Below are positions 2,174 to 24,961 of a stretch of DNA of 64,000 bases, piece after piece. A program made the translations under genes and the position numbers. The stretch spans positions 310,001 to 374,000 of the forward strand of contig JAQWTL010000020.1 of NCBI GenBank assembly GCA_029242715.1, read 5' to 3'. The notes under the pieces are model-generated. The model saw only the letters and a program-made list of their open reading frames with translations. It made no database searches and was not told where the DNA came from. How positions within the stretch are numbered: the first letter of the stretch is position 1; each line of letters begins with the position of its first letter. This DNA comes from Phycisphaerales bacterium. GTDB taxonomy: Bacteria; Planctomycetota; Phycisphaerae; Phycisphaerales; SM1A02.

Positions 2174-2218
2174 CCGGGTACGATACCCGCCGGCAAGCGG
2201 GGAAAGGGTGGATTGACC

Positions 2219-3013: not shown

Positions 3014-3031
3014 CCATCCGGAGAGATGATC

Positions 3032-3586: not shown

Positions 3587-4638
3587 TCCTCCCTCATGAT
3601 CCCGCTCGTCTCATGGTCATCATGCCTTCATGGGTAGGTGACATCGTCATGGCGACACCGGCTCTGCGGCTGCTTCACAAGAAGTTTCCGGACTGCGAGA
3701 TCACAACGGCACTCCGTCCAGGACTCGCCCCGCTCCTGAGCGGGCTCAATGAAATCCATGCATGCCTGGACATTCAACCCAAGGGACTGCTTGGCCCCTG
3801 GCGTGCTGGCCGATCTATTGCCAGTCTGCGACCAGACGCGATCATCCTGCTCCCGAATTCAATGCGTTCTGCGTTGACTGCCCGGCTGGGTGGCGCCTCC
3901 AATCGCATCGGATTCAGTCGACAGGGGCGTTCCAGACTCCTGACCCATTCCGTTACACCCCCCTCTTCATCCAGCATTCACACGACGCTTGATGATTACA
4001 TCGAACTGGCATCTGAGATCACAGGCATAACAAATGTCACGGATCGCCAACCACGTCTCGAACTGACAGATGCTGATAGAGAGGCTGCAGAAAAAGCCAT
4101 GCCTTTGGATGAGGGACCCTTCATCGTCCTGGTTCCAGGGGCCAATCGTCTGGACAAACGGTGGCCGGCTTCCCACTTCACTCGCATCGCAGAGCAACTG
4201 GCTCACGATCACGGCCTGCGCATCGCGGTTGCCGGTGCACCCACTGAGAAACCGCTGGTAGAGAGCATCATTGAGAACGCCAGTTGCAGCATGATCGATC
4301 TTGCCGCAGCCAACCCCGGCCTTGGTGGACTGAAAGCCATCTTGAAAGCAGCTTCCCTGGTGATCACCAATGACACCGGTCCAAGGCATATCGCCGCAGC
4401 CCTCGGGACTCCGATCGTGAGCCTCTTTGGACCCACCGATCATCGTTGGACGGTATTGCCAGACATTATTGAAAGCCGGCTTCTTGCTGAGCCGTTTCTT
4501 CCAGAGTCAATGGTTGCCAACAAGTGCGGCGGAGTCTGTCGAATCGATCGCATCACGATCGAGGATGTCTACGCAGCCTCTGTAAAACTGCTCGACGCAG
4601 CATCTGAGGGGACCGACTCAACGCTGACCTCAGCATGA
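3583..4638 (+). CDS. waaF: Glycosyltransferase family 9 heptosyltransferase
   Basis: Predicted to transfer L-glycero-D-manno-heptose from ADP-heptose to the LPS inner core on the cytoplasmic face of the membrane. The 351-residue product starts with the family N-terminus (MPSWVGDIVMATPAL) and has the C-terminal nucleotide-sugar domain with VPGANRLDKRWP and NDTGPRHIAAALGTP, then SLFGPTDH. It overlaps the upstream phosphatase gene by ATGA, so the two are translationally coupled. The 3' end overlaps the opposite-strand kinase gene by 86 bases. The symbol is by family; WaaC or another GT9 enzyme is possible. Confidence 0.88.
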   Translation: MILPHDPARLMVIMPSWVGDIVMATPALRLLHKKFPDCEITTALRPGLAPLLSGLNEIHACLDIQPKGLLGPWRAGRSIASLRPDAIILLPNSMRSALTARLGGASNRIGFSRQGRSRLLTHSVTPPSSSSIHTTLDDYIELASEITGITNVTDRQPRLELTDADREAAEKAMPLDEGPFIVLVPGANRLDKRWPASHFTRIAEQLAHDHGLRIAVAGAPTEKPLVESIIENASCSMIDLAAANPGLGGLKAILKAASLVITNDTGPRHIAAALGTPIVSLFGPTDHRWTVLPDIIESRLLAEPFLPESMVANKCGGVCRIDRITIEDVYAASVKLLDAASEGTDSTLTSA

Positions 4639-5221
4639 TCCTGCGAAGCCTCGCTGCATCCGGCACAGTTCCAGCATGTCCTTCTCGCACCTCGACATCA
4701 AGGCGATCAAGCATCATGGCCAAGGCAGCCACTCGGTCACGATCCCGTACCACACCGACTGGATCAATCAGCCAGGGATGATCCGATCCCTGTTCAACTA
4801 CCACGTTGCTGAGTTTGAAGTCGCGATGGCGAAAACCGGCATTCGCCAAAGTGGCCACGATGAGGCCCAGTTGTTCCGCCAGCAAACTGGCTTGAGAATC
4901 ATCATTGGCCTGTAACTGCGACAAAGCCGTATGGCCTTCTATGTAAGGCATGACCAGGAGCAGAACCGGTCGATTTCGATGCCATCCAGGTCGAATGGTC
5001 CGGACCTTGGGCGTCTTGATTCCGGCTCGGCTGAGCCTGCCTGCACCTCTGGCATGTCGCCAGGGCTGCGCAATTCCCATGAGGCATTTGCAGGCAAACC
5101 AGGGCGTCAGTGTCCAGGACTTGTACGTCAAGGGTGGTTGCCCCTGAGCGCGCAAGAGCCAGACGGCCCGCCCGCCATCCTCCTTGAGCATGTGCTTGGT
5201 CAGCTCTTGATGCCGCATCAC
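4553..5221 (-). CDS. LPS core kinase-like protein (KdkA/WaaP family)
   Basis: Looks like a small protein-kinase-fold enzyme of the Kdo/heptose kinase (InaA/WaaP) group, which phosphorylates LPS core sugars. The catalytic loop HRDFKLSN is at residues 132-139, and a candidate ATP-binding Lys is in LTYKSW near residue 34. The metal-binding segment reads LIDPVG rather than the usual D-F-x, so the Asp is kept but the Phe is lost. The protein starts at GTG 5221 or ATG 5218, with GGAG upstream. It is the only minus-strand gene in this LPS group and overlaps the heptosyltransferase tail to tail. The product is 222 residues, slightly short for the family. Confidence 0.72.
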   Translation of the reverse strand: MMRHQELTKHMLKEDGGRAVWLLRAQGQPPLTYKSWTLTPWFACKCLMGIAQPWRHARGAGRLSRAGIKTPKVRTIRPGWHRNRPVLLLVMPYIEGHTALSQLQANDDSQASLLAEQLGLIVATLANAGFRHRDFKLSNVVVEQGSDHPWLIDPVGVVRDRDRVAALAMMLDRLDVEVREGHAGTVPDAARLRRIMLRSALSRSPQMLRRAVLQRLRRHPRS

Positions 5222-5417
5222 TGGACACCATAGCTCCGGGCGAGGTTCTCGGCATGTCTGCGATCACATCGGGCCTGAGGCGTATACTTGCAGCCCGGGA
5301 GACCCCCCCATCACCACTGATATTGAAAGCGTACCTGCATCCCCGGCTCCACCCGTCACGGCACGGGAATCGGCTGCTTTCGCACATGCAGTTGATCCGC
5401 TTGGACACCGAATCCAT

Positions 5418-6674
5418 GTGGCCATCGCCGGCGGCTTTGCTTTCGTCCTGCCTCTTGGCATGGTGCCCGGCGCCAAGGACGTGCTGCTCATCGCACTTCT
5501 GGTGTACACCGTGCTGCGACTGCCAAAGATCCACGCATGCTTTGGCCCATTTGTGCGAGATCCTCTTATGTGGTGGATCCTGGCCTGGCCTGTCTGGCTG
5601 GCAATCAGCCTGGCCTGGAGCCCTTCACCAATCTTCGGTGGTGAAGAACTTCGTGCCTGGCGAATGCTTCTGGTCCCCATTCTGCTCTGGCCCGTGATGC
5701 ATCGTTATCGCCTGCTGGTGATGGCCTTCCTGCTGGGTTGCCTCGTCGTGGTTCTTGTCCAGCTTGGACAGATCATTGGTGTCCCCGGATTCGAACTCGA
5801 TATCCAGGGACGTGCGGACGCCTGGATGCATCCGATTCTGGCTGGGGCCATGTTGGCAACAGCAGCCATGTGGATGCTGACCGGTGTTCTCCAATGGCAA
5901 GGAAACCGTGCTGTCGCCATGGCGGCCGGCTTGATCATTGTCGTCATCGGATTGGTGCTGACTGGAAGTCGTGGGCCCTGGGTGAGCATGGCCATTGCCG
6001 GAAGCATGCTCGTGATCGGAACACTGGCACTCTGCCCCGCCGCTCGGAAACGTACATGCACCATGGGCGCCCTTGGGATTGTGGCCATCTGCGGCCTGGT
6101 ACTTCTGGACGTCTACGTCCTTTCAGGCAAACTGACCGGACCGGTCAGGAATCGCCTTGAAACAGCTCTCCTCGAAACGGATTCTTCATCCGGTGATGAT
6201 CATTATGAAATCGCCCTTGGTGGCTGGCACCGAACCCCGATTGGATACCGACTTCTTGTCTGGCAAGGCGCTCGAGATGTTTTCCTGGACCATCCCCTGA
6301 TTGGTGTCGGCGCTGGTGGCCTTTCCGCCAACCTTGAAGATGCCTGGTGGCTCAGTGATCCCGCTGCTCAGGCAGAGGGCATTCCACTTCGTTCACAACA
6401 TCTCAACCCACACTCGATGTACCTGCAGGTCCTGGCAAGTACCGGAATCATCGGCTGCCTCTTGCTGATAATCCCCATGATCCTTGCCGCCAGTCGGCTC
6501 GTGGGACGGGCCAGTGACCCGATCTTCTTCGGTTCAGCCTTCGTACTTGTCGCGTGGGCAGCCGGCGCCGCATTTGATGGTTACCAGATGATGACGGCCC
6601 AGATCGGCATGCTCATGTTTGTATATGCAGCGGCATTGTTGTCCAGGAACACCAACCGGGAGTCCGCAACATGA
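5418..6674 (+). CDS. O-antigen ligase/polymerase (WaaL/Wzy-like) membrane protein
   Basis: A roughly 418-residue polytopic inner-membrane protein with about ten hydrophobic segments. Near the C-terminal third it has a large periplasmic loop and the segment QHLNPHSMYLQVLASTG, whose His is characteristic of the O-antigen ligase superfamily; DHPLIGVGAGG precedes it. Members join or polymerise O-antigen or other glycans on undecaprenyl carriers. Sequence alone does not separate ligase from polymerase. The start is uncertain: GTG 5418 gives a membrane-first N-terminus without a clear ribosome binding site, and the frame stays open upstream. It overlaps plsY by ATGA. Confidence 0.85.
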   Translation: MAIAGGFAFVLPLGMVPGAKDVLLIALLVYTVLRLPKIHACFGPFVRDPLMWWILAWPVWLAISLAWSPSPIFGGEELRAWRMLLVPILLWPVMHRYRLLVMAFLLGCLVVVLVQLGQIIGVPGFELDIQGRADAWMHPILAGAMLATAAMWMLTGVLQWQGNRAVAMAAGLIIVVIGLVLTGSRGPWVSMAIAGSMLVIGTLALCPAARKRTCTMGALGIVAICGLVLLDVYVLSGKLTGPVRNRLETALLETDSSSGDDHYEIALGGWHRTPIGYRLLVWQGARDVFLDHPLIGVGAGGLSANLEDAWWLSDPAAQAEGIPLRSQHLNPHSMYLQVLASTGIIGCLLLIIPMILAASRLVGRASDPIFFGSAFVLVAWAAGAAFDGYQMMTAQIGMLMFVYAAALLSRNTNRESAT

Positions 6675-7384
6675 TTTGGACCTGGATTGGATGCATCATT
6701 GGCGCCTACGTGTTGGGCTCGATCCCCTTCGGTGTCTTCATTGGCAAGGCACATGGAATCAACATCCGTGAGCAGGGATCCAAGAACATTGGCGCAACCA
6801 ATGTGGGCCGAGTACTTGGTCGACGCTGGGGACTACTGTGCTTTTTTCTGGACATGGCAAAGGGTGCTGTCCCGGTAGTCATTGCCGGCATTCTGACCGG
6901 ACTCTATACCCGCGACATCTTTGTCGTTCCGGGCCAATGGTGGCTTTGGCTGGCCGTGGGATTGGCCGCTTTGCTGGGGCACATGTATTCGATCTTTCTA
7001 CGTGGCGGCGGCGGCAAGGGAGTCGCCACAACCTTTGGTGCCCTGCTGGCGATGTGGCCCGTGATGACCATCGCAGTCGGCACCGCTTTCATCATCTGGG
7101 GCATTCTCCTGGCGTTGTTCCGAATGATCTCCCTGGCCAGCATGATCGCCGCCATCTGCATTCCCATCGTGGTGGTCGTTGTGCTGCAGTACATGCATTT
7201 TCAACGTGAAAAAGCAACATTGGGATTGATCGATGACACCGGTCTGCCATTGGGGCCAATCATCATTGCAATTCTGCTTGCGGCACTGGTGCTCTGGAAA
7301 CATCGCAGCAACATCGCGAGAATCCGTGCTGGAACCGAGCCACGCATTGGCCAGTCACGGCGAGAGCCCGGCATCGGCAACTGA
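6671..7384 (+). CDS. plsY: Acyl-phosphate:glycerol-3-phosphate acyltransferase
   Basis: Catalyses the first acylation of glycerol-3-phosphate in phospholipid synthesis using acyl-phosphate, in the inner membrane. The 237-residue product has the family motifs in order: GSIPFG near residue 16, GSKNIGATNVGR near residues 36-47, and the glycine-rich LRGGGGKGVATTFG around residues 112-126. Several transmembrane segments are evident. PlsX, its usual donor-forming partner, is not in the window. It overlaps the upstream O-antigen ligase by ATGA and the downstream opposite-strand gene tail to tail by 30 bases. Confidence 0.95.
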   Translation: MIWTWIGCIIGAYVLGSIPFGVFIGKAHGINIREQGSKNIGATNVGRVLGRRWGLLCFFLDMAKGAVPVVIAGILTGLYTRDIFVVPGQWWLWLAVGLAALLGHMYSIFLRGGGGKGVATTFGALLAMWPVMTIAVGTAFIIWGILLALFRMISLASMIAAICIPIVVVVVLQYMHFQREKATLGLIDDTGLPLGPIIIAILLAALVLWKHRSNIARIRAGTEPRIGQSRREPGIGN

Positions 7385-8260
7385 AATCAGAAGCCAGGCA
7401 AGAGCCGCCGCCAAAGGTAGTTTCAAGTCGACCAGGTCCTTGATCCGTGCGACACGAACGGACCGAAGTGCCACCGTCATGAACAAGAACACCGTGCCCA
7501 GCAGCAATGCAGGCAACCATGCGATTTGCCCCATGGCTGCAGAAATGACCAGGATCATGAAGCCCATGCACTGAAGCACAATGGCCAGCTTCCATGTTTC
7601 GGAAATGCCCAGGGTGTTGGCAATGGTCCGAGTGCCGAATCTGGCATCGGCATGACGATCATCAATGTCACAGAGCATCGCATCCGCAAAGACGTTGAGC
7701 ATCAGAAAGATGCCCACGGCAAGCAATGTCATGGTTTGAGATCCCGAGCCTTCCAGCAAGAGGACCAGGGCCGTGATGCTGATGGCCACGAAGAGGTTCT
7801 TCAATGTCATCCTGTCCTTGGGCCGCGGCAGACGTCCACGATGGCTGTAGACCCAGACTCCAATCGGTGCACCGATGACCGCTACCGTCGCAGCAGGTAT
7901 CAGCAGCCATGATGCCAATGCCGCCAACACTATGAGCGTAATGGCCACCAGGCGTACAGGAACATCAAGCCTCAGTAAAACCGCTGCCCGTTCCGGATGG
8001 GCCATCTTGTCGGCAGGATCGGAGAGGCCCGGCCAGGGCTTCACCCGGTCAATCAGATATGTGCCAACAGTCGTCGGGATCGCAATGCACAAGGCTGCCA
8101 GAGACACCTCGCCATGGAGCAACAAGCCCGCGATGACAACACAACCACCCACGTAAAGCCCCACCCAGGCGGCCAGATGACCAAACAAGTCACTTGTCGC
8201 ATGCAAACCGGACCGACTGGCAACCAGTGATACCGAGGGGGATGAGAATCTTGCGGCCAT
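7355..8260 (-). CDS. UbiA-family prenyltransferase-like membrane protein
   Basis: A 301-residue polytopic membrane protein with about eight hydrophobic segments. The pattern resembles UbiA prenyltransferases: a first acidic cluster around LIDRVKPWPGLSDPADK and a second in MLCDIDDRHADARFGTRT, which keeps the Asp-rich motif and the FGTRT that often follows it. The first motif lacks the standard NxxxDxxxD layout, so the prenyl substrate and even activity are uncertain. It is convergent with plsY and divergent from purB. It differs clearly from the more canonical UbiA gene at 14691. Confidence 0.72.
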   Translation of the reverse strand: MAARFSSPSVSLVASRSGLHATSDLFGHLAAWVGLYVGGCVVIAGLLLHGEVSLAALCIAIPTTVGTYLIDRVKPWPGLSDPADKMAHPERAAVLLRLDVPVRLVAITLIVLAALASWLLIPAATVAVIGAPIGVWVYSHRGRLPRPKDRMTLKNLFVAISITALVLLLEGSGSQTMTLLAVGIFLMLNVFADAMLCDIDDRHADARFGTRTIANTLGISETWKLAIVLQCMGFMILVISAAMGQIAWLPALLLGTVFLFMTVALRSVRVARIKDLVDLKLPLAAALAWLLISVADAGLSP

Positions 8261-8396
8261 GGGGCCATCCTAAGTCCATCACGGGCAATTCACCGGGCCC
8301 GATCCACGGCGCGGTAACATGCCCTCCTGTCGGCCCTGCTTTCTGCCAACTGGGTCACGCTCATCACACCACGGCAAATGGAGTTTTCTCTTTCCC

Positions 8397-9836
8397 GTGT
8401 CAGGCGAATTCGACCGCTACCGTTCACCTCTTGAAACGCGCTACGCGTCAGAGGCGATGCAGCGCCTATGGTCAGATGGGCATCGCTTCAGAACATGGCG
8501 TCGACTTTGGCTCGCGCTTGCTGAATCAGAGAAGGCCCTCGGGCTCGACATCACTGACAGCCAGATCCAGGCGATGCGTGAACACCTGGATGACATCGAC
8601 TACGAATCTGCTGCCAAGCATGAGCAGCGACTTCGTCATGACGTGATGGCCCATGTTCATACCTTCGGTGAAGCTGCTCCGGAAGCCCGCGGCATCATTC
8701 ACCTTGGCGCCACGAGTCAATTCGTAAACTGCAATGCCGAGTTGTTGATCCTTCGTGACGCCATGCAACTGCTCGCCACGAAAGCGGCGTCAGTGATTGC
8801 AGCCCTTGGTCAATTCGCTACACAGTGGAAGGATCTGCCAACGCTGGGATTTACCCATTACCAGCCGGCCCAACCTGTCACTGTGGGGCGGAGGGCCATT
8901 ACCTGGGCACAGGACTTCTGGCTGGGCCTTGAAGACCTGGAATTTCGAATCGAATCTCTTCGGTTCCGTGGCGTCCGGGGTGCCACCGGGACACAAGCCT
9001 CGTTCCTGGCACTCTTTGACGGAGATGAGTCAAAGGTCGACGAACTTGACCGCCTGGTCACAAGGCAAATGGGCTGGTCAGAAGATCGCCGTCTGCCCGT
9101 CACTGGCCAGACCTACCCCAGGATTGTGGATGCCCAAATCACCTCATGCCTGGCAGCCATGTCAGCGGCTGTACACAAGTGTGCAACGGATATTCGTCTG
9201 TTGGCAAACCGCAAAGAGATCGAGGAGCCCTTTGGGAAGAAACAGATCGGCTCCTCCGCGATGCCCTACAAACGAAACCCGATGAGATGCGAACGAGCTT
9301 GTGGCATGGCCCGATTCGTCATGACCCTGGCCTCCAGCCCTCTGCAGACAGCATCCACCCAATGGTTTGAACGAACCCTCGATGATTCAGCCAACCGACG
9401 ACTGGTTCTACCAGAGGCCTTTCTGGCCCTGGATGGCTGCCTGGACATCATGCGTGATGTTCTGGCTGGCTTGGTGGTCTACCCGGAAACGATCCGCCGC
9501 AATCTCGAGGCAGAATTGCCATTCATGGCCAGTGAGGAACTCCTCATGGAAGCTGTTCGGCGAGGCGGTGACCGCCAGGAGGTCCATGAGGCCATCAGGC
9601 AGCATGCCCAGGATGCTGCCAATCGGGTGAAGAGTGAAGGGGCAGACAATGACCTCATTGAACGGCTGCGAAAAGAGCCTCTCATGGATGGGATTGACCT
9701 GGAGGCCCTGCTTGATCCAGCCCGCTACATCGGCCGCAGCAGCAGCCAGGTAGATCAGTTCAATGACAAGATCGTCGGCCCGATCAGCCAGCGATATGCT
9801 CCTGAAGCCCTGGATGAAGCAGCTCTGAAGGTCTGA
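8397..9836 (+). CDS. purB: Adenylosuccinate lyase
   Basis: Releases fumarate in two steps of purine synthesis: SAICAR to AICAR and adenylosuccinate to AMP. The fumarase/aspartase superfamily signature SSAMPYKRNPMRCE is clear, and the catalytic-His segments HLGATS and GFTHYQPAQP are present. The GTG at 8397 gives 479 residues, beginning with the family-like FDRYRSPLETRYAS; an ATG at 8319 would add 26 unlikely residues. A GGAG lies 13 bases before the GTG. A hairpin with a six-T run directly follows the stop codon. The gene appears to be its own transcription unit. Confidence 0.95.
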   Translation: MSGEFDRYRSPLETRYASEAMQRLWSDGHRFRTWRRLWLALAESEKALGLDITDSQIQAMREHLDDIDYESAAKHEQRLRHDVMAHVHTFGEAAPEARGIIHLGATSQFVNCNAELLILRDAMQLLATKAASVIAALGQFATQWKDLPTLGFTHYQPAQPVTVGRRAITWAQDFWLGLEDLEFRIESLRFRGVRGATGTQASFLALFDGDESKVDELDRLVTRQMGWSEDRRLPVTGQTYPRIVDAQITSCLAAMSAAVHKCATDIRLLANRKEIEEPFGKKQIGSSAMPYKRNPMRCERACGMARFVMTLASSPLQTASTQWFERTLDDSANRRLVLPEAFLALDGCLDIMRDVLAGLVVYPETIRRNLEAELPFMASEELLMEAVRRGGDRQEVHEAIRQHAQDAANRVKSEGADNDLIERLRKEPLMDGIDLEALLDPARYIGRSSSQVDQFNDKIVGPISQRYAPEALDEAALKV

Positions 9837-9849
9837 ATAGGCATAAAAT

Positions 9850-9871
9850 GGTGCTGAAAGGCGCCTTTTTT
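9850..9871 (+). terminator. Intrinsic terminator after purB
   Basis: A five-base-pair stem (9850-9854 with 9861-9865, one G-U pair), a six-base loop and six consecutive T residues at 9866-9871 begin 13 bases after the purB stop. This is a standard Rho-independent terminator layout on the plus strand. Confidence 0.8.
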
Positions 9872-9930
9872 CGAAGCTACTGACTAAACCGCATTTACAG
9901 CACACCCAGGCTGGCGAGCATGCGTTTATT

Positions 9931-10078
9931 GCCCTTTAAAGGGCTATTGAATCTAACAAATCAGGCACCTGATCATGCGATTTTCGTACTGAAATCGCAG
10001 TATTAGCCCCTGCTGGCCGATAAGGAGAGGCAAGAGCCGTAAGGTAGCGGCTGTTGTACCCCTCGTAAGGGTGCACAA
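9931..10078 (+). promoter_or_regulatory. Hairpin-rich leader upstream of the histone-like gene
   Basis: The 9837-10115 gap carries, after the purB terminator, five inverted repeats in a row: 9931-9944 (GCCCTTTAAAGGGC), 9960-9973, 9976-9999 (eight base pairs), 10035-10052 (five base pairs) and 10054-10078 (eight base pairs with a two-base bulge). The last two each display a CGTAAGG element (10038-10044 and 10064-10070). The strand is assigned from the downstream gene. No known riboswitch consensus was recognised. It could be a structured 5' leader, an independent RNA or protein-binding sites. Confidence 0.45.
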
Positions 10079-10115
10079 CATGTACCCGATGCTGGCATGG
10101 GCCGGAGAGGCACAG

Positions 10116-10295
10116 ATGGAATCCTACGAAAAGATGAAGCGAGTCCTGGCAGAGATTCAAGACGATGTGGACAAGTGCCGCGGTGGCAATAAAGCCGCTG
10201 GTACTCGCGTCCGCAAAGCGATGCAAGAGATCAAAAGCATCGCTCAGGATGTCCGCAAGGAGGTCCTGGACGTACGAGACAGCCCAACGCCCTGA
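10116..10295 (+). CDS. Histone H1-like DNA-binding protein (Hc1 family)
   Basis: A 59-residue basic, helical protein resembling the N-terminal region of chlamydial histone-like Hc1, which compacts the nucleoid. The shared pattern is KMKRVLAEIQDDVDKC followed by GNKAAGTRVRKAMQEIK. It lacks the Lys/Ala-rich tail of longer Hc1 proteins. The ATG at 10116 is chosen because GGAGAGG lies just upstream; the longer open frame from 10071 adds 15 residues over hairpin DNA. The hairpin 10280-10302 (CAGCCCA with TGGGCTG) spans its stop codon. It is flanked on both sides by about 230 bases of strongly structured non-coding DNA. Confidence 0.75.
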   Translation: MESYEKMKRVLAEIQDDVDKCRGGNKAAGTRVRKAMQEIKSIAQDVRKEVLDVRDSPTP

Positions 10296-10310
10296 TGGGC
10301 TGAGGAGCTA

Positions 10311-10402
10311 GCGGTTTCGCCAAAGATCCTGACCCTGCTTACAGCATGGTTGAGGATGTATTGATGGCAGGCCATAATCCTGCTCTGATTTGGCGAAACT
10401 GC
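10311..10402 (+). ncRNA. Candidate structured RNA, predicted three-way junction
   Basis: A 14-base-pair closing stem pairs 10311-10324 (GCGGTTTCGCCAAA) with 10389-10402 (TTTGGCGAAACTGC), with one G-U pair. Inside it lie two hairpins: 10326-10357 (ATCCT...AGGAT, extended inward) and 10367-10383 (GCAGG...CCTGC, seven-base loop). Linkers are one, nine and five bases. This gives a compact three-way junction in the 236-base gap between the histone gene and the FabZ-like gene. I recognise no known family. Strand is inferred from the neighbouring genes; the stem would also form from the other strand. Confidence 0.5.
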
Positions 10403-10423
10403 AACTCTCGCCAGTACGTATCC

Positions 10424-10527
10424 AACGCACCCATACGACATGGGCGTTGTTATGCTTCGCACCTACGCCATCGGCATCTCACCTGATGTGACCGATGGCT
10501 GGTTCACCATTCCAGACAACTCTGGAA
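10424..10527 (+). promoter_or_regulatory. Three further hairpins before the FabZ-like gene
   Basis: Following the candidate RNA, hairpins occur at 10424-10448 (AACGC/GCGTT plus CCA/TGG), 10467-10499 (GCCATCGG/CCGATGGC) and 10510-10527 (TTCCAG/CTGGAA). The last ends four bases before the ATG at 10532 and covers the GGAA that would serve as ribosome binding site, so it could limit translation. No matching regulator is visible. Confidence 0.4.
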
Positions 10528-10531
10528 CACA

Positions 10532-11005
10532 ATGTCTACCGATCAACTATTCGACATTTCTTCAATTGACCTAGATGATGTCTTCCTGACTCCTGACAAG
10601 GTTGCCGAATGTAATCCTCAGCGAGGTGATATGCGGCATCTTGACCATGTGATCTACATGGATGATGGCGCATCCAAGGCCCTTGGGGTCAAGATGGTCA
10701 AGGACGATGAATTCTGGGTGCCCGGCCATATCCCTGGTCGGCCCCTGTTGCCAGCTGTTCTGATGATTGAAGCGGCCGCCCAGCTTTCGAGCATTCTTTA
10801 TCAGTACAGGACCAAGGAAGCCGCCTTCCTCGGTTTCACCCGCTGTGACAAGGCCGTCTTCCGAGGCCAAGTGGTTCCTGGAGACAAACTGCTCCTGCTG
10901 GCCAAGGAACACAAGTTCCAACGTCGACGTTTCTCCTGCGATGCTCAGGGAGTCGTTGAAGGCAAGGTGGTCTTCCAGGTGAAGATCACTGGGATGCAGA
11001 TGTAA
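10532..11005 (+). CDS. 3-hydroxyacyl-ACP dehydratase-like protein (FabZ family)
   Basis: A 157-residue single hotdog-fold protein. The active-site helix region reads FWVPGHIPGRPLLPAVLMIEA, keeping the catalytic His (66) and Glu (80) of FabZ in the H-x-P-G-x-P context, though Ala replaces the usual Gly in the P-G-V segment. It probably dehydrates 3-hydroxyacyl chains in fatty acid or lipid A synthesis, but planctomycetes encode several such paralogues and the substrate is not certain. It is preceded by a long hairpin-rich leader (10296-10531) and followed by an opposite-strand gene. Confidence 0.82.
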   Translation: MSTDQLFDISSIDLDDVFLTPDKVAECNPQRGDMRHLDHVIYMDDGASKALGVKMVKDDEFWVPGHIPGRPLLPAVLMIEAAAQLSSILYQYRTKEAAFLGFTRCDKAVFRGQVVPGDKLLLLAKEHKFQRRRFSCDAQGVVEGKVVFQVKITGMQM

Positions 11006-11049
11006 AGCCGGGGTTTCCCCTGGCCGGACCGCCAGATTGAACCGACTGT

Positions 11050-11571
11050 TCAGTAGACGGCCAAGCCGACAAATGAAGTTCGATACGTATTGAGAGGAAC
11101 TCCTCCGTGCCTGCCATGGGCGGTCGGACAGTAATTGTTGACGATGATCGGCGGTCCCCACCAGCCCCAGTTGCCCCCGCCACCCCAGCCCCAAGGCTGG
11201 TAGCCGTAGTTGTTGGCATAGCCATACATCGGCAATGCGATGCCACTTTGGAACTGGGAAGCTGAAACGGATCTGCCATGAAGATGGTGATCACGAGTCC
11301 GTCCCTCACGAGCGGAATATCTTTCCAGGGAATCAACGCCTTCCAAGAACAATGAGGATTCCATGCTTGCCATCGCTGCCGGTGCCTGGGGGGCCTTCCC
11401 TGAGATACTGGCTGTCATGCTTGTCGCCAACTCCGATATCTCATCGGAACTGAGCTGAGGCGTTCCAAACCCAGGGGGCAATGGCATTGAGATCACATCC
11501 GAGGCTGCCGCTGGAATCGCCATGGCAAGCCCAAGAACGGTCATCAATACTGCCTGAATCAATCGATGCAT
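11050..11571 (-). CDS. Secreted Gly/Trp/Tyr-rich protein of unknown function
   Basis: A 173-residue product with a clear signal peptide (hydrophobic core, cleavage after AIPAAA). The mature chain has an Ala/Ser-rich first half and a C-terminal region rich in Gly, Trp, Tyr and Asn around residues 115-150 (YGYANNYGYQPWGWGGGG). The start is supported by GGAGAG five bases upstream. No known domain was recognised. Composition suggests a surface or matrix protein, but that is inference. It is convergent with the FabZ-like gene and divergent from manA. Confidence 0.72.
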   Translation of the reverse strand: MHRLIQAVLMTVLGLAMAIPAAASDVISMPLPPGFGTPQLSSDEISELATSMTASISGKAPQAPAAMASMESSLFLEGVDSLERYSAREGRTRDHHLHGRSVSASQFQSGIALPMYGYANNYGYQPWGWGGGGNWGWWGPPIIVNNYCPTAHGRHGGVPLNTYRTSFVGLAVY

Positions 11572-11672
11572 GGTTCTCTCCAGTCGCCTGAAACCGATGT
11601 CTTTATGCTATCACCTAGAAGAGGTGTGCCAAACACACTTTTCCCTTCTCCATCAAGCACCTGGACCTAACC

Positions 11673-12656
11673 ATGCCCCTGGCCCCACTTCGATTCAAGC
11701 CCATCCTCAAACCCAAGGTCTGGGGCGGCCACCTCCTGGCTGAAATGGGCAAGCCCGCCCCGCCAGATGAAAGCATTGGTGAGTCCTGGGAACTTGCCGA
11801 TCTGCCTGATTCGATCAGTGAAGGGCGATCCCGTATCGATGGTGGGCCATGCGATGGGCAATTGCTTCAGACAGTACTGGCTGAGAATGGCAAGGCCCTG
11901 CTCGGGCGAGCCAATCTCTCACCGGAAGGTGGTTTTCCTCTTCTCCTGAAGTTCCTTGATGCCAACGAGAATCTTTCTGTCCAGGTTCATCCTGATGAAG
12001 CCTATGTCGCCAAGCACCCGGAAGCACACTTGAAATCCGAAGCCTGGTACATCCTGGAAGCCAAGCCTGGAAGCGTGATCTACGCAGGCGTGCAACCCGG
12101 TGTCGATGCCGCGCAATTCAAGACTGCTATCGAGAAAGGTGATCTTGTTGATCTACTGGTGTCCATCCCCGCTGTTCCAGGAGACTGTCATTACCTGCCC
12201 AGTGGAACCTGCCATGCACTTGGAGAAGGCGTACTCGTTGCCGAAGTCCAGACACCAAGCGACACCACCTTTCGCGTATGGGACTGGGGCCGAACAGATC
12301 GGGAGATCCATGTGGAAGCCGCCATGGCCTGCATTGACTTCTCGGGCCGCAAAGTGACTGCCCCTCCACCTCCGGCCATGACATCCGCCGACCGAATCAC
12401 GACGAGATTTGTCGAAGTCCCGTTCTTCACCATTGATCGATTGCAATCCAACGGCACCACCTCGATGGACATGCCGACGAAGGATCTCCCAGAGGCCATC
12501 ATGGTTCTCGATGGCAACGGTCATTTGAACTTTGACAATGACAACATGTCGCTGGAACGAGGGGACACCGTCCTGCTTCCAGCTGATCGACCGACTTGCA
12601 CGATCGTGCCCCAGCAATCACTGGATCTGCTGCACGTGACGCTTGGTACTGGTTGA
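11673..12656 (+). CDS. manA: Mannose-6-phosphate isomerase, class I
   Basis: Interconverts fructose-6-phosphate and mannose-6-phosphate, supplying GDP-mannose and related sugars. The 327-residue protein contains the zinc-site segments SVQVHPDE near residues 105-112 and KSEAWYILEA, then PSGTCHALGEG near 177-187, and the C-terminal cupin with VQTPSDTTFRVWDWGR. The length fits the short bacterial form. It may supply mannose units for the exopolysaccharide or O-antigen genes in the window, but this is inference. It ends one base before the opposite-strand small gene. Confidence 0.93.
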   Translation: MPLAPLRFKPILKPKVWGGHLLAEMGKPAPPDESIGESWELADLPDSISEGRSRIDGGPCDGQLLQTVLAENGKALLGRANLSPEGGFPLLLKFLDANENLSVQVHPDEAYVAKHPEAHLKSEAWYILEAKPGSVIYAGVQPGVDAAQFKTAIEKGDLVDLLVSIPAVPGDCHYLPSGTCHALGEGVLVAEVQTPSDTTFRVWDWGRTDREIHVEAAMACIDFSGRKVTAPPPPAMTSADRITTRFVEVPFFTIDRLQSNGTTSMDMPTKDLPEAIMVLDGNGHLNFDNDNMSLERGDTVLLPADRPTCTIVPQQSLDLLHVTLGTG

Positions 12657-12657
12657 C

Positions 12658-12987
12658 TCAACCCTTCAAGTCGATGATGCGACCACGTTCTACACCCGTT
12701 GCCGCCTCAAGTCGATCGGCATCACGTGTATACAACTGGAAGGCACCTGGCTGCCGAACCGGCGAGTTGGATGCCAGTTCGAAATCCATGCCGCCAGCAA
12801 CACGACCGGCAACCAGTCGATCAATCGCGTTTGGTGCACTGACTTGAGCAGGCGCACTTGTCCGTACCGGTGCAACGACAGATGGCGCCTGCACCGGACT
12901 CGTCCTGGTGAGGTTCGGCTGCCGAGCCGATTGCATACTCTGGTATGCAACCGCCGCCCGGAACGGGTATGGACCGCCAATCTCCAT
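12658..12987 (-). CDS. Small protein of unknown function, lineage-specific
   Basis: A 109-residue product, basic and Pro/Ala/Val-rich in the middle (residues 20-50), ending with an ordered segment AFQLYTRDADRLEAATGVER and a short GRIIDLKG tail. The C-terminal pattern recalls short proteins seen in other planctomycetes, from memory only. A GAGGAG lies 13 bases upstream of the ATG, a somewhat long spacing. It lies downstream of proS on the same strand with about 145 bases between, and is tail to tail with manA. No signal peptide or membrane segment is seen. Confidence 0.6.
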   Translation of the reverse strand: MEIGGPYPFRAAVAYQSMQSARQPNLTRTSPVQAPSVVAPVRTSAPAQVSAPNAIDRLVAGRVAGGMDFELASNSPVRQPGAFQLYTRDADRLEAATGVERGRIIDLKG

Positions 12988-13079
12988 GATTTCAGACTAG
13001 CTCCTCAACGACACATTGCTAGCCATTCACGTCGATTTCCCAGCCGACGTCATGGCCCCTTCGAGAGATCACTATCGGA

Positions 13080-13117
13080 GGGACCATACATGCTTCTTGA
13101 AGGAAGCCTGAGGTCCC
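13080..13117 (-). terminator. Hairpin downstream of proS
   Basis: GGGACC (13080-13085) pairs with GGTCCC (13112-13117), with an inner GCTTC/GAAGC pairing. It lies about 16 bases past the proS stop on the minus strand. There is no T run after it, so termination is only a possibility. The rest of the 12988-13133 gap shows nothing else I can name. Confidence 0.4.
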
Positions 13118-13133
13118 ATAATGAGAGACTGGA

Positions 13134-14654
13134 CTAGTAGGACTTGGCCCATACGAGTCTTTGCTCGCTTGGTTGGCCGGTAAATGGACATGTGCCCGGC
13201 TCGCCACCCTCCAGGGGTATGCAGCGAACCGTGACGCCAAGTTCATCCTTGATCTTCTTCTCGAGTTCGGAATCCCCACAGAAATGCGTCAGGGCAAAGC
13301 CGCCGTGAATCGGCGTAGGCTCTCCTGCGGGTGATGTGAAGAAATCACGGAAGTCTGTTTCGCTGTCAATGGTGTGCGTGTTCTCTTCACGGAAACTGAG
13401 GGCGCGATCATGCAGACCCTGCTGAATTTCTTCCAGCATGCTGGTCAAGTTGGCAATGAACTCCGATCGTGGAATCCCCTGCTTTTCCTTGGGCGAGAGA
13501 TCTCGTCTGGCAACGAAAACGGAATCGGCCGCCATGTCACGAGGTCCGACTTCTACTCGAACCGGAACACCTTTCTTGACCCAGGACCAGCTCTTTTCGC
13601 CACCACGCATATCCCGGTCATCGATTTCAACCTCGATGTGCCGTCCATGGAATGCCTGGACTCGCAGATCATCAGCCAACTTGTGGCAGTAATTGATGAT
13701 CTTGTCAGGCTCATCCGACTTGAAGGTGATGGGCATGATCACGACATGTACAGGTGCCAGACGTGGCGGCAGAACCAATCCGTCATCATCGGCATGTGTC
13801 ATGATCAAGCCGCCAATGAGTCGGGTTGAAACGCCCCATGATGTCGTCCAGGCATGCAGGCGATCGCCATTCTCATCGATGTAAACGATGTCCTGGGCCT
13901 TGGAAAAATTCTGGCCGAGAAAATGGGAGGTCCCTGCTTGAAGCGCCTTGCGATCCTGCATCATGCCTTCGATGCAGTAGGTCTTGACCGCCCCGGGGAA
14001 TCGTTCCGCTGCTGTTTTCTCGCCAGTGAGCACCGGCATTGCCATGGTGTCGCGTGCAAAGTCTGCATAGACGTTGAGCATGCGAATCGTGTGTTCACGC
14101 GCTTCTTCTTCAGTGGCATGAGCCGTATGGCCTTCTTGCCAGAGAAACTCGGAGGTCCGAAGGAACAATCGTGTACGCATTTCCCATCGCACGACATTGG
14201 CCCATTGATTGATCAACAGTGGCAGATCACGGTAGGACTCGATCCAGCGGGAAAAGGCATCCCCGATGATCATTTCGGATGTCGGTCTGACAATCAATGG
14301 CTCTTCAAGTTCACCGGCAGGCACCAACCCGCCATCAGGGCCCGCCTCAAGGCGATGGTGGGTGACAACCGCACATTCCTTCGCGAAGCCCTCAACGTGC
14401 TCCGCTTCCTTCTCAAGGAAACGCTTGGGAATGAACAACGGGAAGTATGCATTCTTGTGCCCGGTGGCCTTGAACATGCCATCCAGGACATGCTGCATGT
14501 TTTCCCAGAGTGCGCATCCCCAGGGCTTGATGACCATGCAGCCACGAACCGGGGAATTCTCCGCCAGGTCGGCTGCCCGGACCACCTGCTGGTACCACTC
14601 CGGGTAGTTCTCTGTCCGCGTGGGTGTGATTGCCGTCTTTGCTGCCTTTGCCAT
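13134..14654 (-). CDS. proS: Prolyl-tRNA synthetase, archaeal/eukaryotic type
   Basis: Charges tRNA-Pro. The 506-residue protein begins with the type-3 ProRS N-terminus (ENYPEWYQQVVRAADLAE) and has class II motif 2 around RWEMRTRLFLRTSEFLWQEG, the AHATEEEA segment, and motif 3 near SWGVSTRLIGGLIMTH. The anticodon-binding domain follows from about residue 300, and a C-terminal zinc-domain-like region ends in VWAKSY. It lacks the editing insertion of the standard bacterial enzyme. The ATG at 14654 has no strong ribosome binding site. It is divergent from the UbiA gene with 36 bases between. Confidence 0.95.
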   Translation of the reverse strand: MAKAAKTAITPTRTENYPEWYQQVVRAADLAENSPVRGCMVIKPWGCALWENMQHVLDGMFKATGHKNAYFPLFIPKRFLEKEAEHVEGFAKECAVVTHHRLEAGPDGGLVPAGELEEPLIVRPTSEMIIGDAFSRWIESYRDLPLLINQWANVVRWEMRTRLFLRTSEFLWQEGHTAHATEEEAREHTIRMLNVYADFARDTMAMPVLTGEKTAAERFPGAVKTYCIEGMMQDRKALQAGTSHFLGQNFSKAQDIVYIDENGDRLHAWTTSWGVSTRLIGGLIMTHADDDGLVLPPRLAPVHVVIMPITFKSDEPDKIINYCHKLADDLRVQAFHGRHIEVEIDDRDMRGGEKSWSWVKKGVPVRVEVGPRDMAADSVFVARRDLSPKEKQGIPRSEFIANLTSMLEEIQQGLHDRALSFREENTHTIDSETDFRDFFTSPAGEPTPIHGGFALTHFCGDSELEKKIKDELGVTVRCIPLEGGEPGTCPFTGQPSEQRLVWAKSY

Positions 14655-14690
14655 GGGATGGGCAGGGTACCCGCTGGTTAGGATGCACGC

Positions 14691-15629
14691 GTGACCACGA
14701 CCCCAGCCACAGCTCAGAGAGGCCTTCTAGGCACGACGGCCGTCCTGGCCAGAGACATCAAACTGGCCCACAGTGTCTTTGCCCTGCCCTTCGCGTTGCT
14801 TGGTCTTTTCCTGGCAGCGTGGCCCGCCGATCCAACTCTCCGGATCGGGGGACAGCAGTTGTTCATCAATATTCTTCTGGTGATAGCAGCCATGGTGACG
14901 GCACGGACAGCCGCGATGCTGGCCAATCGATGGTTGGACCGCGACATCGATGCTCGAAATCCGAGGACCGCCGGAAGAGCCTTGCCTGCCGGTGCGACGT
15001 CCAGCCAGGCTGTTCTGCTTGGACTTGTGTTCTCCAGCATGATCTTCATGCTGATCTGCCTTCTGTTTCTTCTCCTGGACGGCAACTGGTGGCCTCTGGT
15101 TCTGGGCCTGCCCGTTCTTGCCTGGCTCTGCCTGTATCCGGTGATGAAACGAGTCACCTGGGGCTGCCATCTCTGGCTGGGAGCATCCCTTGCATGGAGC
15201 CCATTAGCTGCTGCCATCGCCGTTCGTCCCGATGCGCTGGTTGAACAAGGCGCACTGTGGTTGCTGGCTGCCATGGTCCTGTTCTGGGTATCAGGGTTCG
15301 ACATCATCTATGCACTGCAGGACATTGATGTCGACCGTCGAGAAAGACTCCACAGCATTCCGGCCCGATTCGGGATCAATGGTGCTCTCTGGATCAGCCG
15401 CCTGCTTCATATGCTTGCTGGCAGTGCCTTGATCCTGGCCTGGGTTGTCGATCAAAGACTTGGCGCCGTCTTCCTGGGCGCATCCATTGCGGCCTGCCTG
15501 CTGCTCTTGATCGAGCAGGCGACTGTTCGCCGCTGGGGAACGACCAGAATGGCGCTGACATTCTTCACCCTCAATGGCATCGTTTCATGCGTGATCGGGC
15601 TGGCTGGAATCCTGGACCTTGCATACTGA
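14691..15629 (+). CDS. 4-hydroxybenzoate prenyltransferase-like protein (UbiA/MqnP)
   Basis: Polytopic membrane prenyltransferase of the UbiA family, 312 residues. Both Asp-rich motifs are intact: NRWLDRDIDARNPRT near residues 83-97 and DIIYALQDIDVDR near 204-216, which bind the Mg-prenyl diphosphate. The substrate is probably an aromatic acid in ubiquinone or futalosine-route menaquinone synthesis; in this group MqnP-like use is plausible, but no other pathway gene is present. The start is a GTG at 14691 with AGGA eight bases upstream. It ends in a hairpin shared with the convergent oxidoreductase gene. Confidence 0.88.
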   Translation: MTTTPATAQRGLLGTTAVLARDIKLAHSVFALPFALLGLFLAAWPADPTLRIGGQQLFINILLVIAAMVTARTAAMLANRWLDRDIDARNPRTAGRALPAGATSSQAVLLGLVFSSMIFMLICLLFLLLDGNWWPLVLGLPVLAWLCLYPVMKRVTWGCHLWLGASLAWSPLAAAIAVRPDALVEQGALWLLAAMVLFWVSGFDIIYALQDIDVDRRERLHSIPARFGINGALWISRLLHMLAGSALILAWVVDQRLGAVFLGASIAACLLLLIEQATVRRWGTTRMALTFFTLNGIVSCVIGLAGILDLAY

Positions 15630-15644
15630 GCATGATGTGCTCAG
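15626..15644. terminator. Hairpin between two convergent genes
   Basis: CTGAGCA (15626-15632) pairs with TGCTCAG (15638-15644) around a five-base loop, covering the stop codons of both the UbiA gene and the oxidoreductase gene. It may end transcription from both sides, although T runs are missing. Confidence 0.45.
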
Positions 15645-16936
15645 GAAGAAGGAATACCCCAGTCCCCACGGTCCGCACGTGACACCTTGGCGTTGGCGGC
15701 CTTTGCATTGGCCCCTGTGAACTGCTCGGCCTTGGGATCCCAGGCAAGTGGTTCACCCACCTCATAACCGATCACAGCCAGTTGATTGACTGAAGCAGTC
15801 CGGTGTCCGACCTCTTCATGGCATATCGGTTTTTCACGCGAACGCATGCACTCGACCCAGTTCTTCATATGGCCGCCTGTCTCAGGCAACTTGAGATCCC
15901 CATCTGAAGCAGGATCCTTCAGGATCGCTTCACTGGACGCTTCAAGCACACCGCGATCCACGTAGATCATGCCATCACTGCCGTGGAACGTGCATCCATT
16001 GCGACCACCATGGATCACCTTGACGCCATTGTCGTACTCAAGGACAAGGCCACGTTGAGGCATCTCACCCTCAACAAGATCAGGCGGAATGATTCGAACA
16101 GGCCCAGTGTGATCTGCATCCATGGCCCACTGGGCGATGTCGTAATGATGTGCGCCCATGTCAGCAAAGAAACCATTGCCATACTCGCGATACTGCCGCC
16201 AGCGTGGATAGTGCCCATGCACACCGATTGGGCACAACTCGGCGCTGAAACCACGCTGAGGTGCTGCACCAAGCCAACGCTCCCAGTCATAGCCTGCGGG
16301 CGTCTCTTCATCAGGCAATTCACAGGGCGTGGGCGGATCCCCAACGCCGATCTCGATCGTCTCGATCTTTCCGATCCGGCCATTACGAATATGTTCGCAG
16401 GCGACTCTGAAACGACCGCCATACTCGCTTCGTTGCTGTGAACCGGTCTGGAAGACAGCTTTGCCTTGACGAACTGCATCGCGGATCGCCTGCCCTTCGG
16501 CAATGGTCAAGGTCAATGGCTTCTCGCAATAGACATCTATGCCATTGCGTGCCGCAAGCACGGCCGGCCTGGCGTGGCCATGGTCCTGTGTCGCGATCAC
16601 GACGGCATCGATATCGGGACGTGCCAGCAATGCTTCATAGTCGACGTAGCTTGCACAAGGCTGCCCTTGCTTGACCTTGACGGCTTCAACCGCAGCCAGG
16701 GATCTTGGTTCAGCAATTTCACTGACTCCGACGATGCGAACATCATCGCGTTGCATCAACTGATCCATGAGACGTCGGCCGCGAATCCCCATGCCGATGA
16801 CGCCGATTCCAATCGTTTCATTGACGCTCGTAGAGGGCCCGGCCAGACCTGAACGGGTCATCAACCAGGGTGATGTGACAGCAGCAACCGCTCCAGCTGC
16901 GAGCACACTACGACGGTCAAGCGATTGATCAGGCAT
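15641..16936 (-). CDS. TAT-exported Gfo/Idh/MocA-family oxidoreductase
   Basis: NAD(P)-binding sugar or polyol dehydrogenase-like protein, 431 residues. The N-terminus has a twin-arginine signal (LDRRSVLAAGAVAAVTS), so it is exported folded. The Rossmann signature GIGVIGMGIRGR follows near residue 42, then the family EKPLT motif with the catalytic Lys near residue 130, and the C-terminal domain with FFADMGAHHYDIAQWAM, which carries the usual His. ATG 16936 is chosen because GAGGAG lies seven bases upstream; an upstream TTG has none. It lies 49 bases after the M14 peptidase gene on the same strand. The substrate is not known. Confidence 0.92.
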   Translation of the reverse strand: MPDQSLDRRSVLAAGAVAAVTSPWLMTRSGLAGPSTSVNETIGIGVIGMGIRGRRLMDQLMQRDDVRIVGVSEIAEPRSLAAVEAVKVKQGQPCASYVDYEALLARPDIDAVVIATQDHGHARPAVLAARNGIDVYCEKPLTLTIAEGQAIRDAVRQGKAVFQTGSQQRSEYGGRFRVACEHIRNGRIGKIETIEIGVGDPPTPCELPDEETPAGYDWERWLGAAPQRGFSAELCPIGVHGHYPRWRQYREYGNGFFADMGAHHYDIAQWAMDADHTGPVRIIPPDLVEGEMPQRGLVLEYDNGVKVIHGGRNGCTFHGSDGMIYVDRGVLEASSEAILKDPASDGDLKLPETGGHMKNWVECMRSREKPICHEEVGHRTASVNQLAVIGYEVGEPLAWDPKAEQFTGANAKAANAKVSRADRGDWGIPSS

Positions 16937-16985
16937 GGATGAACTCCTCGCCCGAGTGTACGCCGAATTCAATCAACCGGGGAAC

Positions 16986-19301
16986 TCAGCAATCACCCCA
17001 GGAGGCAATGACAATCAGGATGTCAGCGACATCAACAAACCCGCTTCCATCCAGGTCGAAGTCCGCATTGGCATTGCCGAACTCTGCCAGGATGGCGAGG
17101 ACATCTGCAACATCTACGACTCCATTGGGAACAACGTCTGCGACGCAATCATTGTCCTCAACACAATCGCTCCTTGAGAGATTGACGCCATCAACGGCGG
17201 CTTCCACGACTGAACCACTGAGAACATCCTCGACGATGAACCGAACGCGGAAGTTGCTGCTGGGTTCAAGGCCAGCCACTGAATCAAGATCATGCTCAAT
17301 GCCGTTCCAGCCACCATTGGTACCTGTACCGGTTGGGCCGACAATTTCCAGCACGACCCAGTTGAGGCCGCCATTGTCTGAAGCCTCGACGACCATGGTG
17401 TCCTCACCAGGGGCCGCACCACTCGAATTCGAGAACCATCGCGAGTATGAAAGGATGTTGCCGTCACCGGTAGCGTCCATCGTGGGCGACGTCAGGATGA
17501 CCTCGCCGTTATCCACATCCGAGTTTCCATCCACATTGTCGGTCTGCCAGCAGGATCCACTGCCATCGGCATCATTCGGGGCATCACCTCGGTCACCACC
17601 ACCGACTGGAATACCGATGTCCCAGAAACCATCTGTCGCGCTTCCGGCGATCTCCCAACCCAGATCGGTTTCGCAATCATCATCGAAGCTCACGACGAGA
17701 TCCGAGACGGGGGAAGCAGAGAAGGTATCTGTTGGCGCCGTTCCAGGAAGACTGACTTCAGAACCACTGAGTCCTTCAGCGACCAGGAAGAATTCCGGTT
17801 CGGAATCACAACTGAATGCCGGAAGCGTTGCCGAATACTCTTCACCACCAAGGTAGTTCAGGCTGGTATCGGTATAGGAACCACCATCACCTCGCCATGC
17901 GATCCTGGCAGTTCCGGGAACGGGATCTTCACTACGGGCGGTAATCCGCACCGGAAACGTGGTGGTGTCATTCGACCAGACGAGACTTGGTGGACCGCTT
18001 GGAAGCTCGATCGTGAATGGCGAGCCAACCCACTCCATCATGGTCAGAACAGCCTGGTAGTTCTCTTCTGCACAAGGCTGAATTTCACTTGGAGGAGGTG
18101 CGAATCCACCAGGGTCACCGGAACCTGGTCGCAGCTCAATGCAGTACGCCCTGGATCCATAGGTGTCATAAGGCCAGTCAATCAGCGTGCCACTGGCGCA
18201 GTACAGAATGTTGCATGGGTTGTCGTGTACATATGACTTGCCATGAACTGCTGCGATCGCATCTGACATGTCGCCACCAAGCTCATGCAGTTCATCGAAA
18301 TCCGACGGAGGCACCGTGGTGTAACCACGAGGCTCCAGGATCAACTGTGAATAGGCATGGAAGTCGACTTGAGCCTTGATGTTGCCATGGGCCAACATGT
18401 AATTGGCCAAGGCATCAACCTCAGGCTCTGACATCGATGATGGACCGACGTAGATGTCGCTGCAAGGATCGTTGCTGGTGCTCTGGCCGCCATTCCAGTC
18501 TGAACCCCAGTTGCGGTTGAGATCTACACCAGCACACGAGCTGCCGTTCACCCGACGATTCTTTCGCCAGTAACGATCACCACCAGGTGCATACGTGTAG
18601 TAGTACCCATCGGGATTACTCACAGGAATGACGACGACTTCCATTTTCTGAAGCATCGAGGTCACAGCGGGATCATTTCCATACGCGTCCAGCAACGTAT
18701 CCGCGAGATAGATGGTGGTCATGGGCGAGATCCACTCGCGTGCATGCTGACACCCGTTGAAGAAGACTGCGGGACGGCCGTCATCCGCACCGGAACGAAT
18801 TACAAGACCCCGGATAGGACGATTTTCGTGACTGGTACCGATAGTGATTTCGGTCACGAGATCAGGGTGATCTGCAGCCATTTGATCCAGCCGGTCATTG
18901 AGTTCGGCGAGCGTACGGAAATCGGCATAGAAATCGCCACCACGTTCTGCACGAGCTGCGCGGCGTTCCGCGTTCTGGCGTGAGATGAAAGCCGGGAGGT
19001 CGGCGACGATGTCCTCATGATCCAAACCGAGTGATTCGAGAAGCAATTCACCATCAGCATCAAGCAACCATGGACCTTCTCCAGGCGTCGGCGTACAAGC
19101 CAGACCCCTCATGCCCTCATTCTGAAGCAGCTTGAGAACAGCTTCATCCGGAACATCGATTTCCACGACGCGAAGCCCCTCGTAGTCAGAGGGCGTGGGC
19201 ATGGGAACCTCTGCAGAAGCAAAGGCTCCGATGGCAAACATGGTGGTTGCTACACAGAGGCCAGGAAGACTCCTGGCATGGTGAATACTGCTTGATTTCA
19301 C
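16986..19301 (-). CDS. Secreted M14 zinc carboxypeptidase with dockerin-like tail
   Basis: A 771-residue exported peptidase. A signal peptide is followed by a short propeptide-like region and the M14 domain: zinc ligands in NGCQHAREW (HxxE), Asn/Arg in VDLNRNWGSDW, the third His in QVDFHAYSQ, and the catalytic Glu in YCIELRPGSG. Beta-sandwich regions follow, then a C-terminal pair of calcium-loop-like repeats (NGVVDVADVLAILAEFG and DGSGFVDVADILIVIASWG) ending in Asp-Cys, typical of planctomycete 'GC-type' dockerin tails. The GTG at 19301 has GAGGAG upstream; the frame stays open to 19367 but those residues look spurious. It probably digests external protein. Confidence 0.92.
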   Translation of the reverse strand: MKSSSIHHARSLPGLCVATTMFAIGAFASAEVPMPTPSDYEGLRVVEIDVPDEAVLKLLQNEGMRGLACTPTPGEGPWLLDADGELLLESLGLDHEDIVADLPAFISRQNAERRAARAERGGDFYADFRTLAELNDRLDQMAADHPDLVTEITIGTSHENRPIRGLVIRSGADDGRPAVFFNGCQHAREWISPMTTIYLADTLLDAYGNDPAVTSMLQKMEVVVIPVSNPDGYYYTYAPGGDRYWRKNRRVNGSSCAGVDLNRNWGSDWNGGQSTSNDPCSDIYVGPSSMSEPEVDALANYMLAHGNIKAQVDFHAYSQLILEPRGYTTVPPSDFDELHELGGDMSDAIAAVHGKSYVHDNPCNILYCASGTLIDWPYDTYGSRAYCIELRPGSGDPGGFAPPPSEIQPCAEENYQAVLTMMEWVGSPFTIELPSGPPSLVWSNDTTTFPVRITARSEDPVPGTARIAWRGDGGSYTDTSLNYLGGEEYSATLPAFSCDSEPEFFLVAEGLSGSEVSLPGTAPTDTFSASPVSDLVVSFDDDCETDLGWEIAGSATDGFWDIGIPVGGGDRGDAPNDADGSGSCWQTDNVDGNSDVDNGEVILTSPTMDATGDGNILSYSRWFSNSSGAAPGEDTMVVEASDNGGLNWVVLEIVGPTGTGTNGGWNGIEHDLDSVAGLEPSSNFRVRFIVEDVLSGSVVEAAVDGVNLSRSDCVEDNDCVADVVPNGVVDVADVLAILAEFGNANADFDLDGSGFVDVADILIVIASWGDC

Positions 19302-19435
19302 GATTCTCTCCTCGTTCAATCCCGATGCAGGAACATCCGAACATTTGGGGCTTCCGGATCCACCCAATCTCTCCAGTATGGGGGATTCACTGGCTATCGC
19401 AAGCCCTAGCAGGCCATTCTGAGCGTATTCGCAGC

Positions 19436-20809: not shown

Positions 20810-20887
20810 GGTGAGCTCCTGTTCATACTGGGAAGATTGGATTGTAGACAGCAAACAGCCCTTGGGAAACAAAGACCTCATGAAACA

Positions 20888-20953: not shown

Positions 20954-20962
20954 GGGAGAGTT

Positions 20963-24888: not shown

Positions 24889-24896
24889 ACGAACCA

Positions 24897-24922: not shown

Positions 24923-24961
24923 CGGGAATCAATCCTTTATCTATCTATACGCATGCCAGAC

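Follow-up and report, generated by a model that had tools for sequence, protein, structure and literature searches.

In Chlamydia, the sRNA IhtA is described as repressing the translation of HctA, an Hc1 homologue (PMC3469542, PMC4355289), and the second of these articles states that it acts by base pairing. As regards gene ends, Gupta and Pal 2021 (PMC8355165) proposed that clusters of hairpins located near stop codons and devoid of U-trails work as intrinsic terminators; the reference list of that article includes a title stating that a mycobacterial polymerase requires a U-tract, so the proposal may not hold generally, and the text of it that was searched makes no mention of planctomycetes. 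Before a fold predicted from a single sequence near a gene end is labelled a riboswitch or an sRNA, the best check is on its position, with other offsets serving as controls.

The locus considered here lies in a window of 64,000 nt, the whole stretch of DNA that was analysed, from a Phycisphaerales bacterium (assembly GCA_029242715.1, contig JAQWTL010000020.1, positions 310,001-374,000 of the forward strand). A sequence-only reading of this DNA had placed a three-way-junction RNA beside a histone-like gene, and that neighbour is confirmed as an Hc1 gene. The features of the region are the following:

10071..10295, + strand: Hc1 histone-like protein gene (Pfam PF07432 Hc1, E 4.4e-22)
10311..10324, + strand: closing stem of the element, 5' arm (folding)
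10326..10357, + strand: first of the two inner hairpins, bulged, 13 pairs (folding)
10366..10384, + strand: second inner hairpin, 6 pairs (folding)
10389..10402, + strand: closing stem, 3' arm, with no U-tract after it (folding, sequence)
10418..10455, + strand: weaker hairpin, second in the gap, -12.3 kcal/mol (folding)
10459..10505, + strand: hairpin, third in the gap, -21.0 kcal/mol (folding)
10510..10527, + strand: fourth, small hairpin of the gap, 7 pairs, -7.9 kcal/mol, right before the next start codon (folding)
10532..11005, + strand: FabA/FabZ-like dehydratase gene, next downstream (Pfam PF07977, E 2.4e-19)

The limits given for the Hc1 gene, which is preceded by purB, are those of the longest ORF, the part that was compared starting at 10119, directly after the ATG at 10116. 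Against NCBIfam HctA the gene scores E 5.2e-8, under the cut-off of that model, and the FabA/FabZ-like gene likewise stays under the cut-off of the fabZ model (E 1.5e-21). An Hc1 match is present in 145 of the 151 genomes of the family, this genome counted. Both genes are on the + strand, and the gap between them had been described as gene-free and 236 bases long, which agrees with the ORFs ending at 10295 and starting at 10532 (gap 10296-10531, 236 nt). The element, at 10311-10402, begins 15 nt past the Hc1 stop, and the FabA-type gene starts 129 nt beyond it. When translated fragments of the gap were compared with the other five congeneric gaps in search of a small ORF, none scored better than E 0.019 (7 residues).

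On the + strand the 92 nt of the element have a minimum free energy of -41.6 kcal/mol (z -5.33), none of 200 dinucleotide shuffles being as stable, and on the - strand of -34.5 kcal/mol (z -3.89), with 2 of 200 shuffles as good. The three-way junction read from the sequence is reproduced by these predictions: a closing stem of 14 pairs (13 Watson-Crick and one G-U) encloses a bulged hairpin of 13 pairs and another of six, and in a context of 130 nt the outer 12 closing pairs have probabilities of 0.978-1.0 and the inner two of 0.866 and 0.408. Further on in the gap, the terminator scan flags 10430-10444, an inner part of the hairpin at 10418..10455, with a poor T-tail.

Within the window, the gap as a whole (z -5.5 on the + strand, -4.3 on the - strand) is among the top three in structure when the 21 spacers that separate called genes and measure 50-500 nt are compared, while 40 coding pieces taken as a control have a mean z of -0.6 and a lowest value of -4.5. 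In a GC-corrected scan of 8520 windows of 92 nt, the element at its exact coordinates would be third (-4.1 sd), after 20876-20967 (-5.6) and 62996-63087 (-4.7); the windows of the scan's own grid, displaced by a few bases from the element, are absent from the best 15, so this third rank owes much to the exact coordinates. The fold of the element exceeds chance, yet it is not unique in the window. The two structures ranking above it both lie within ~110 nt past the stop codons of called genes, and hairpins of -25 kcal/mol or better are found at 3/19 gene ends of the window with a spacer of at least 60 nt and at 0/31 with a shorter one, the medians being alike, so that gene ends here do not as a rule carry strong hairpins. 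Over 1-20000, shuffles give simple terminator patterns about as often as the sequence itself (14.0 vs 15).

As to the individual structures, the top one of the window, at 20882-20962 on the - strand (z -8.55), is made of hairpins of 8 and 18 pairs, directly follows the called gene 20963-22927 and has a broken T-tail after it. The other structure ranking above the element, a perfect hairpin of 13 pairs with a 4-nt loop, is located at 63037-63066 (- strand), ~80 nt past the called gene 63147-63566, and another hairpin, at 24894-24925, sits between two convergent called genes and may serve both ends. In contrast to the element, the terminator-like hairpin that a mere pattern match marks at 9850-9865 (+ strand), after purB, has six T; matches of this kind are the ones that shuffles of 1-20000 yield about as often.

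What kind of RNA, if any, could the element be? Rfam gave no matches at gathering thresholds over the whole window and none at E <= 10 over 10250-10560. A covariance model of the element recovered its own site only, both among the six genomes of the genus (this one and five congeners, E <= 10) and among 151 genomes of the family (145 others; E <= 0.05, stricter filters); this model was built from one sequence entered twice and is thus insensitive to distant homologues, so that its outcome bears on close ones only. When the gap served as a DNA query against 60 relatives, two short matches came out, of 23 and 25 bases, neither of them touching the element, and no sequence core is visible across the six congeneric gaps. 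The resemblance to riboswitches and small ncRNAs that the sequence-only reading had put forward is not borne out: to the lack of Rfam matches, and of covariance-model matches in five congeners and 145 other family genomes, are added a syntenic gap without clear conservation in the nearest relative and junctions no commoner after Hc1 than at other offsets.

Riboswitch ligand cores are normally conserved. The absence of such a core across the six gaps, of Rfam matches and of model matches weighs on the reading of the element as a cis-regulatory leader (a riboswitch or attenuator) of the downstream FabA-type gene, which we consider improbable in spite of the junction fold, of the short distance to a gene on the same strand and of a gene order that is kept in 6/6 loci of the genus and in 39/48 of the family loci examined. 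At eight of the 48 loci (L032, L034, L079, L081, L089, L099, L102 and L103) the FabA-like match is opposite in strand to Hc1, so gene order seems to be rearranged in parts of the family. Stems with z <= -3 after Hc1 persist in 3/8 of these loci, which argues against a leader and indicates that the stem goes with the Hc1 end. A search of the genome contigs with the FabA protein gave two loci, both on congener contigs.

A compact fold adjoining an Hc1 gene, together with the published sRNA control of HctA (PMC3469542, PMC4355289), could also suggest a lineage-specific sRNA, 3'UTR-derived or independent, which would possibly regulate Hc1 as IhtA does in Chlamydia. Nevertheless, in a crude duplex-energy test that ignores internal structure, 166, 65 and 197 of 200 shuffled targets were at least as good as the duplexes of the element with, respectively, two Hc1 starts and the FabA start. 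The covariance model found no matches in relatives, and the sole promoter-like match nearby, at 10350-10378, falls within the element and hence could not account for transcription of its full length. Such an sRNA is, on these grounds, a poor prospect.

The 14-base inverted arms, 64 bases apart and not found in relatives, would likewise fit what is left of a MITE/REP-like repeat, mobile or dispersed, bounded by terminal inverted repeats. This origin is disfavoured, and we give it very little credit: the gap has a single match in its own genome, where the core of the arm occurs three times, two of them being this very stem; no flanking target duplication is seen by eye; and the gap of the nearest relative measures 235 nt vs 236 nt here, which implies no net insertion. 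A dispersed repeat was rejected as a candidate, with one copy in the genome where multiple copies define the class. The riboswitch, sRNA and mobile-element readings are all unsupported, each of them lacking its defining evidence.

The closest comparison is provided by G002, the nearest relative: its Hc1 match, of 58 residues, shows no differences, its FabA protein has 89% identity, and over the element 37/94 aligned columns agree. Of the 33 pairs of the element, 17 are formed in this relative, the top of 25 slides (next 15), and six of these have changed on both sides, a number that is exceeded by one of 24 slides (7) and reached by shuffles in 30/500. The pairs of the element, imposed as they stand on the sequence of the relative, cost +18 kcal/mol. 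In the closing stem, 10/14 pairs are kept (top of 41 slides, next 9), five of them changed on both sides; in the relative's own ensemble, six of the ten have probabilities of 0.12-0.37 and four of <=0.016, and enforcing all ten yields -28.2 vs a free optimum of -37.6 kcal/mol. Compensatory changes in the closing stem had been named beforehand as what would support the RNA, and this alignment gives a hint, not a proof, of a homologous closing stem that may be drifting.

In the other four congeners the gap holds different hairpins or nothing significantly structured. Two sister congeners, G001 and G005, share a hairpin after Hc1 that is identical at 39/42 positions, vs 15/30 just upstream and 40/78 just downstream, and the FabA end of the gap at 50/65. 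This long shared hairpin (L024:1398-1497, - strand; L025:1678-1777, + strand) is at a place similar to that of the element and has a different, unbranched fold.

Position was assessed across the family with 48 Hc1 loci from 43 genera (six congeners plus one locus per other genus), taken from the 145 genomes with an Hc1 match; 12 loci of other families of the order (L029, L033, L036-L038, L043-L045 and L048-L051), which were folded too, were left out of the offset counts. In windows of 80 nt counted from the Hc1 stop, the mean fold z is -1.9 at +0, -2.1 at +20 and -0.9 at +40, and stays between -0.5 and +0.1 from +60 onward, with a shallower dip within the Hc1 gene (-1.0 at -140). Loci with z <= -3 amount to 9/48 at -20, 13/48 at +0, 19/48 at +20 (that is, +20..+100) and 5/48 at +40, the remaining offsets between -240 and +420 having 0-3 each. 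The element of this window is among the 19 (-3.2), while in 28/48 loci, including those of G002 (-1.1) and G003 (-1.4), none of the windows at offsets 0-60 reaches z <= -3. The same picture is given by the best hairpin with a span of <=50 nt, which reaches -25 kcal/mol or better in 23/48 loci after the Hc1 stop vs 3/48, 4/47, 3/47 and 4/47 at four control offsets, a count for which the element is too long to qualify (it scores -15.7). T per 10 is 2.7 after the 32 stronger post-Hc1 hairpins, 2.4 after the weaker ones and 2.1 in the background, a slight enrichment.

Alignments within genera were made for eight groups, with formal counting in g19 alone. In that genus (8 loci, two of them nearly alike), 6/14 hairpin pairs have changed on both sides with pairing kept, a number reached by 0/500 shuffles and compared with 0-1 in slides, and a TTTCTTTG tail after the hairpin is invariant in 8/8 loci; the count of further pair types is not above shuffles (184/500). 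By eye, an aligned hairpin is seen in g8, g5, g53 and g18, and in g52 with more divergence, and in g14 it is common to 2/3 loci. What recurs, then, is the position: strong stems tend to sit immediately past the Hc1 stop even though their sequence is replaced, and this recurrence points to a 3'-end element.

The branched shape does not recur in the same manner. A conserved three-way-junction architecture was rejected, with junctions in 11/48 loci at +0 and 11/48 at +10 vs 2/48, 10/48, 6/48, 8/47 and 12/47 in the controls. Single cases do occur: a junction ~5-95 nt past the Hc1 stop in another genus (L035), similar to the element in size and place and belonging to a class that is not above background, and a further one at about the element's place (L046).

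These counts bear on a serious rival, namely that the stem is a neutral inverted repeat, fortuitous or generated by mutation in a fast-evolving spacer and without any role here. Junctions about as frequent at control offsets as after Hc1, a nearest relative without a strong post-Hc1 stem, other inverted repeats of similar size elsewhere in the window and the failure to find the element as such in the other genomes searched would all be expected from it. It accounts less readily for a fold at z -5.33, unequalled in 200 shuffles, at the very site where many relatives carry strong stems, or for the paired changes hinted at in the closing stem. We hold a neutral repeat to be the less likely reading, though one to be taken seriously.

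On balance, we lean towards the view that the element gives the Hc1 mRNA a structured 3' end, its strong, branched stem terminating or pausing transcription and/or protecting the message. It is most likely this species' own version of the stem that often follows Hc1, and not a new riboswitch or conserved RNA; as such, it is probably one of the ordinary RNA structures of gene ends. The branched stem past the Hc1 stop, with further hairpins after it, would stop or pause the RNA polymerase, alone or jointly with those hairpins, and/or would shield the 3' end of the Hc1 mRNA from exonucleases, and the expression of Hc1 would thereby be kept apart from that of the downstream FabA-type gene. This presumes that the element is transcribed, that it has such a terminating or protecting role and that selection acts on the presence of a stem and not on its shape, all of which we infer from the predicted folds and their position. 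Against this reading count the missing U-tract, the slight T enrichment behind the stronger post-Hc1 hairpins, the 28/48 loci, that of the nearest relative included, that lack a window at z <= -3 at offsets 0-60, the scarcity of strong hairpins at gene ends across the window, terminator patterns at the level of shuffles and a branched shape that is not enriched after Hc1. A more ambitious version, in which the Hc1 genes of the family bear a 3'-end stem selected for strength and not for sequence or shape, tuning the read-through from Hc1 to FabA, and elaborated here into a three-way junction whose closing stem drifts by paired substitutions relative to the nearest relative, seems to us rather doubtful. 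The outcome is a computed picture of the stems after Hc1 genes in this group, for which narrow literature searches found no studies of gene ends.

With regard to known systems, the element shares with IhtA the association of a structured RNA with an Hc1-type gene; unlike IhtA, it has no pairing that stood out in the crude test and no Rfam match. Branched shapes are unusual for terminators. Like canonical intrinsic (Rho-independent) terminators, the element is a stable stem-loop shortly past a stop, at 15 nt, a place at which hairpins followed by T-rich tails occur in some relatives; in contrast to such terminators, it is 92 nt long and branched, and reading of the sequence finds no U-tract straight after 10402, just as the terminator scan flags no site within 10311-10402, so it is not classed among them. 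The proposal of hairpin-cluster terminators (PMC8355165) would be in keeping with the reading favoured here. Such terminators differ in that the largest unit predicted at this locus takes the form of a three-way junction closed by 14 pairs; like them, the gap of the element has several predicted tandem hairpins past a stop codon, in an arrangement for which a U-trail is not required.
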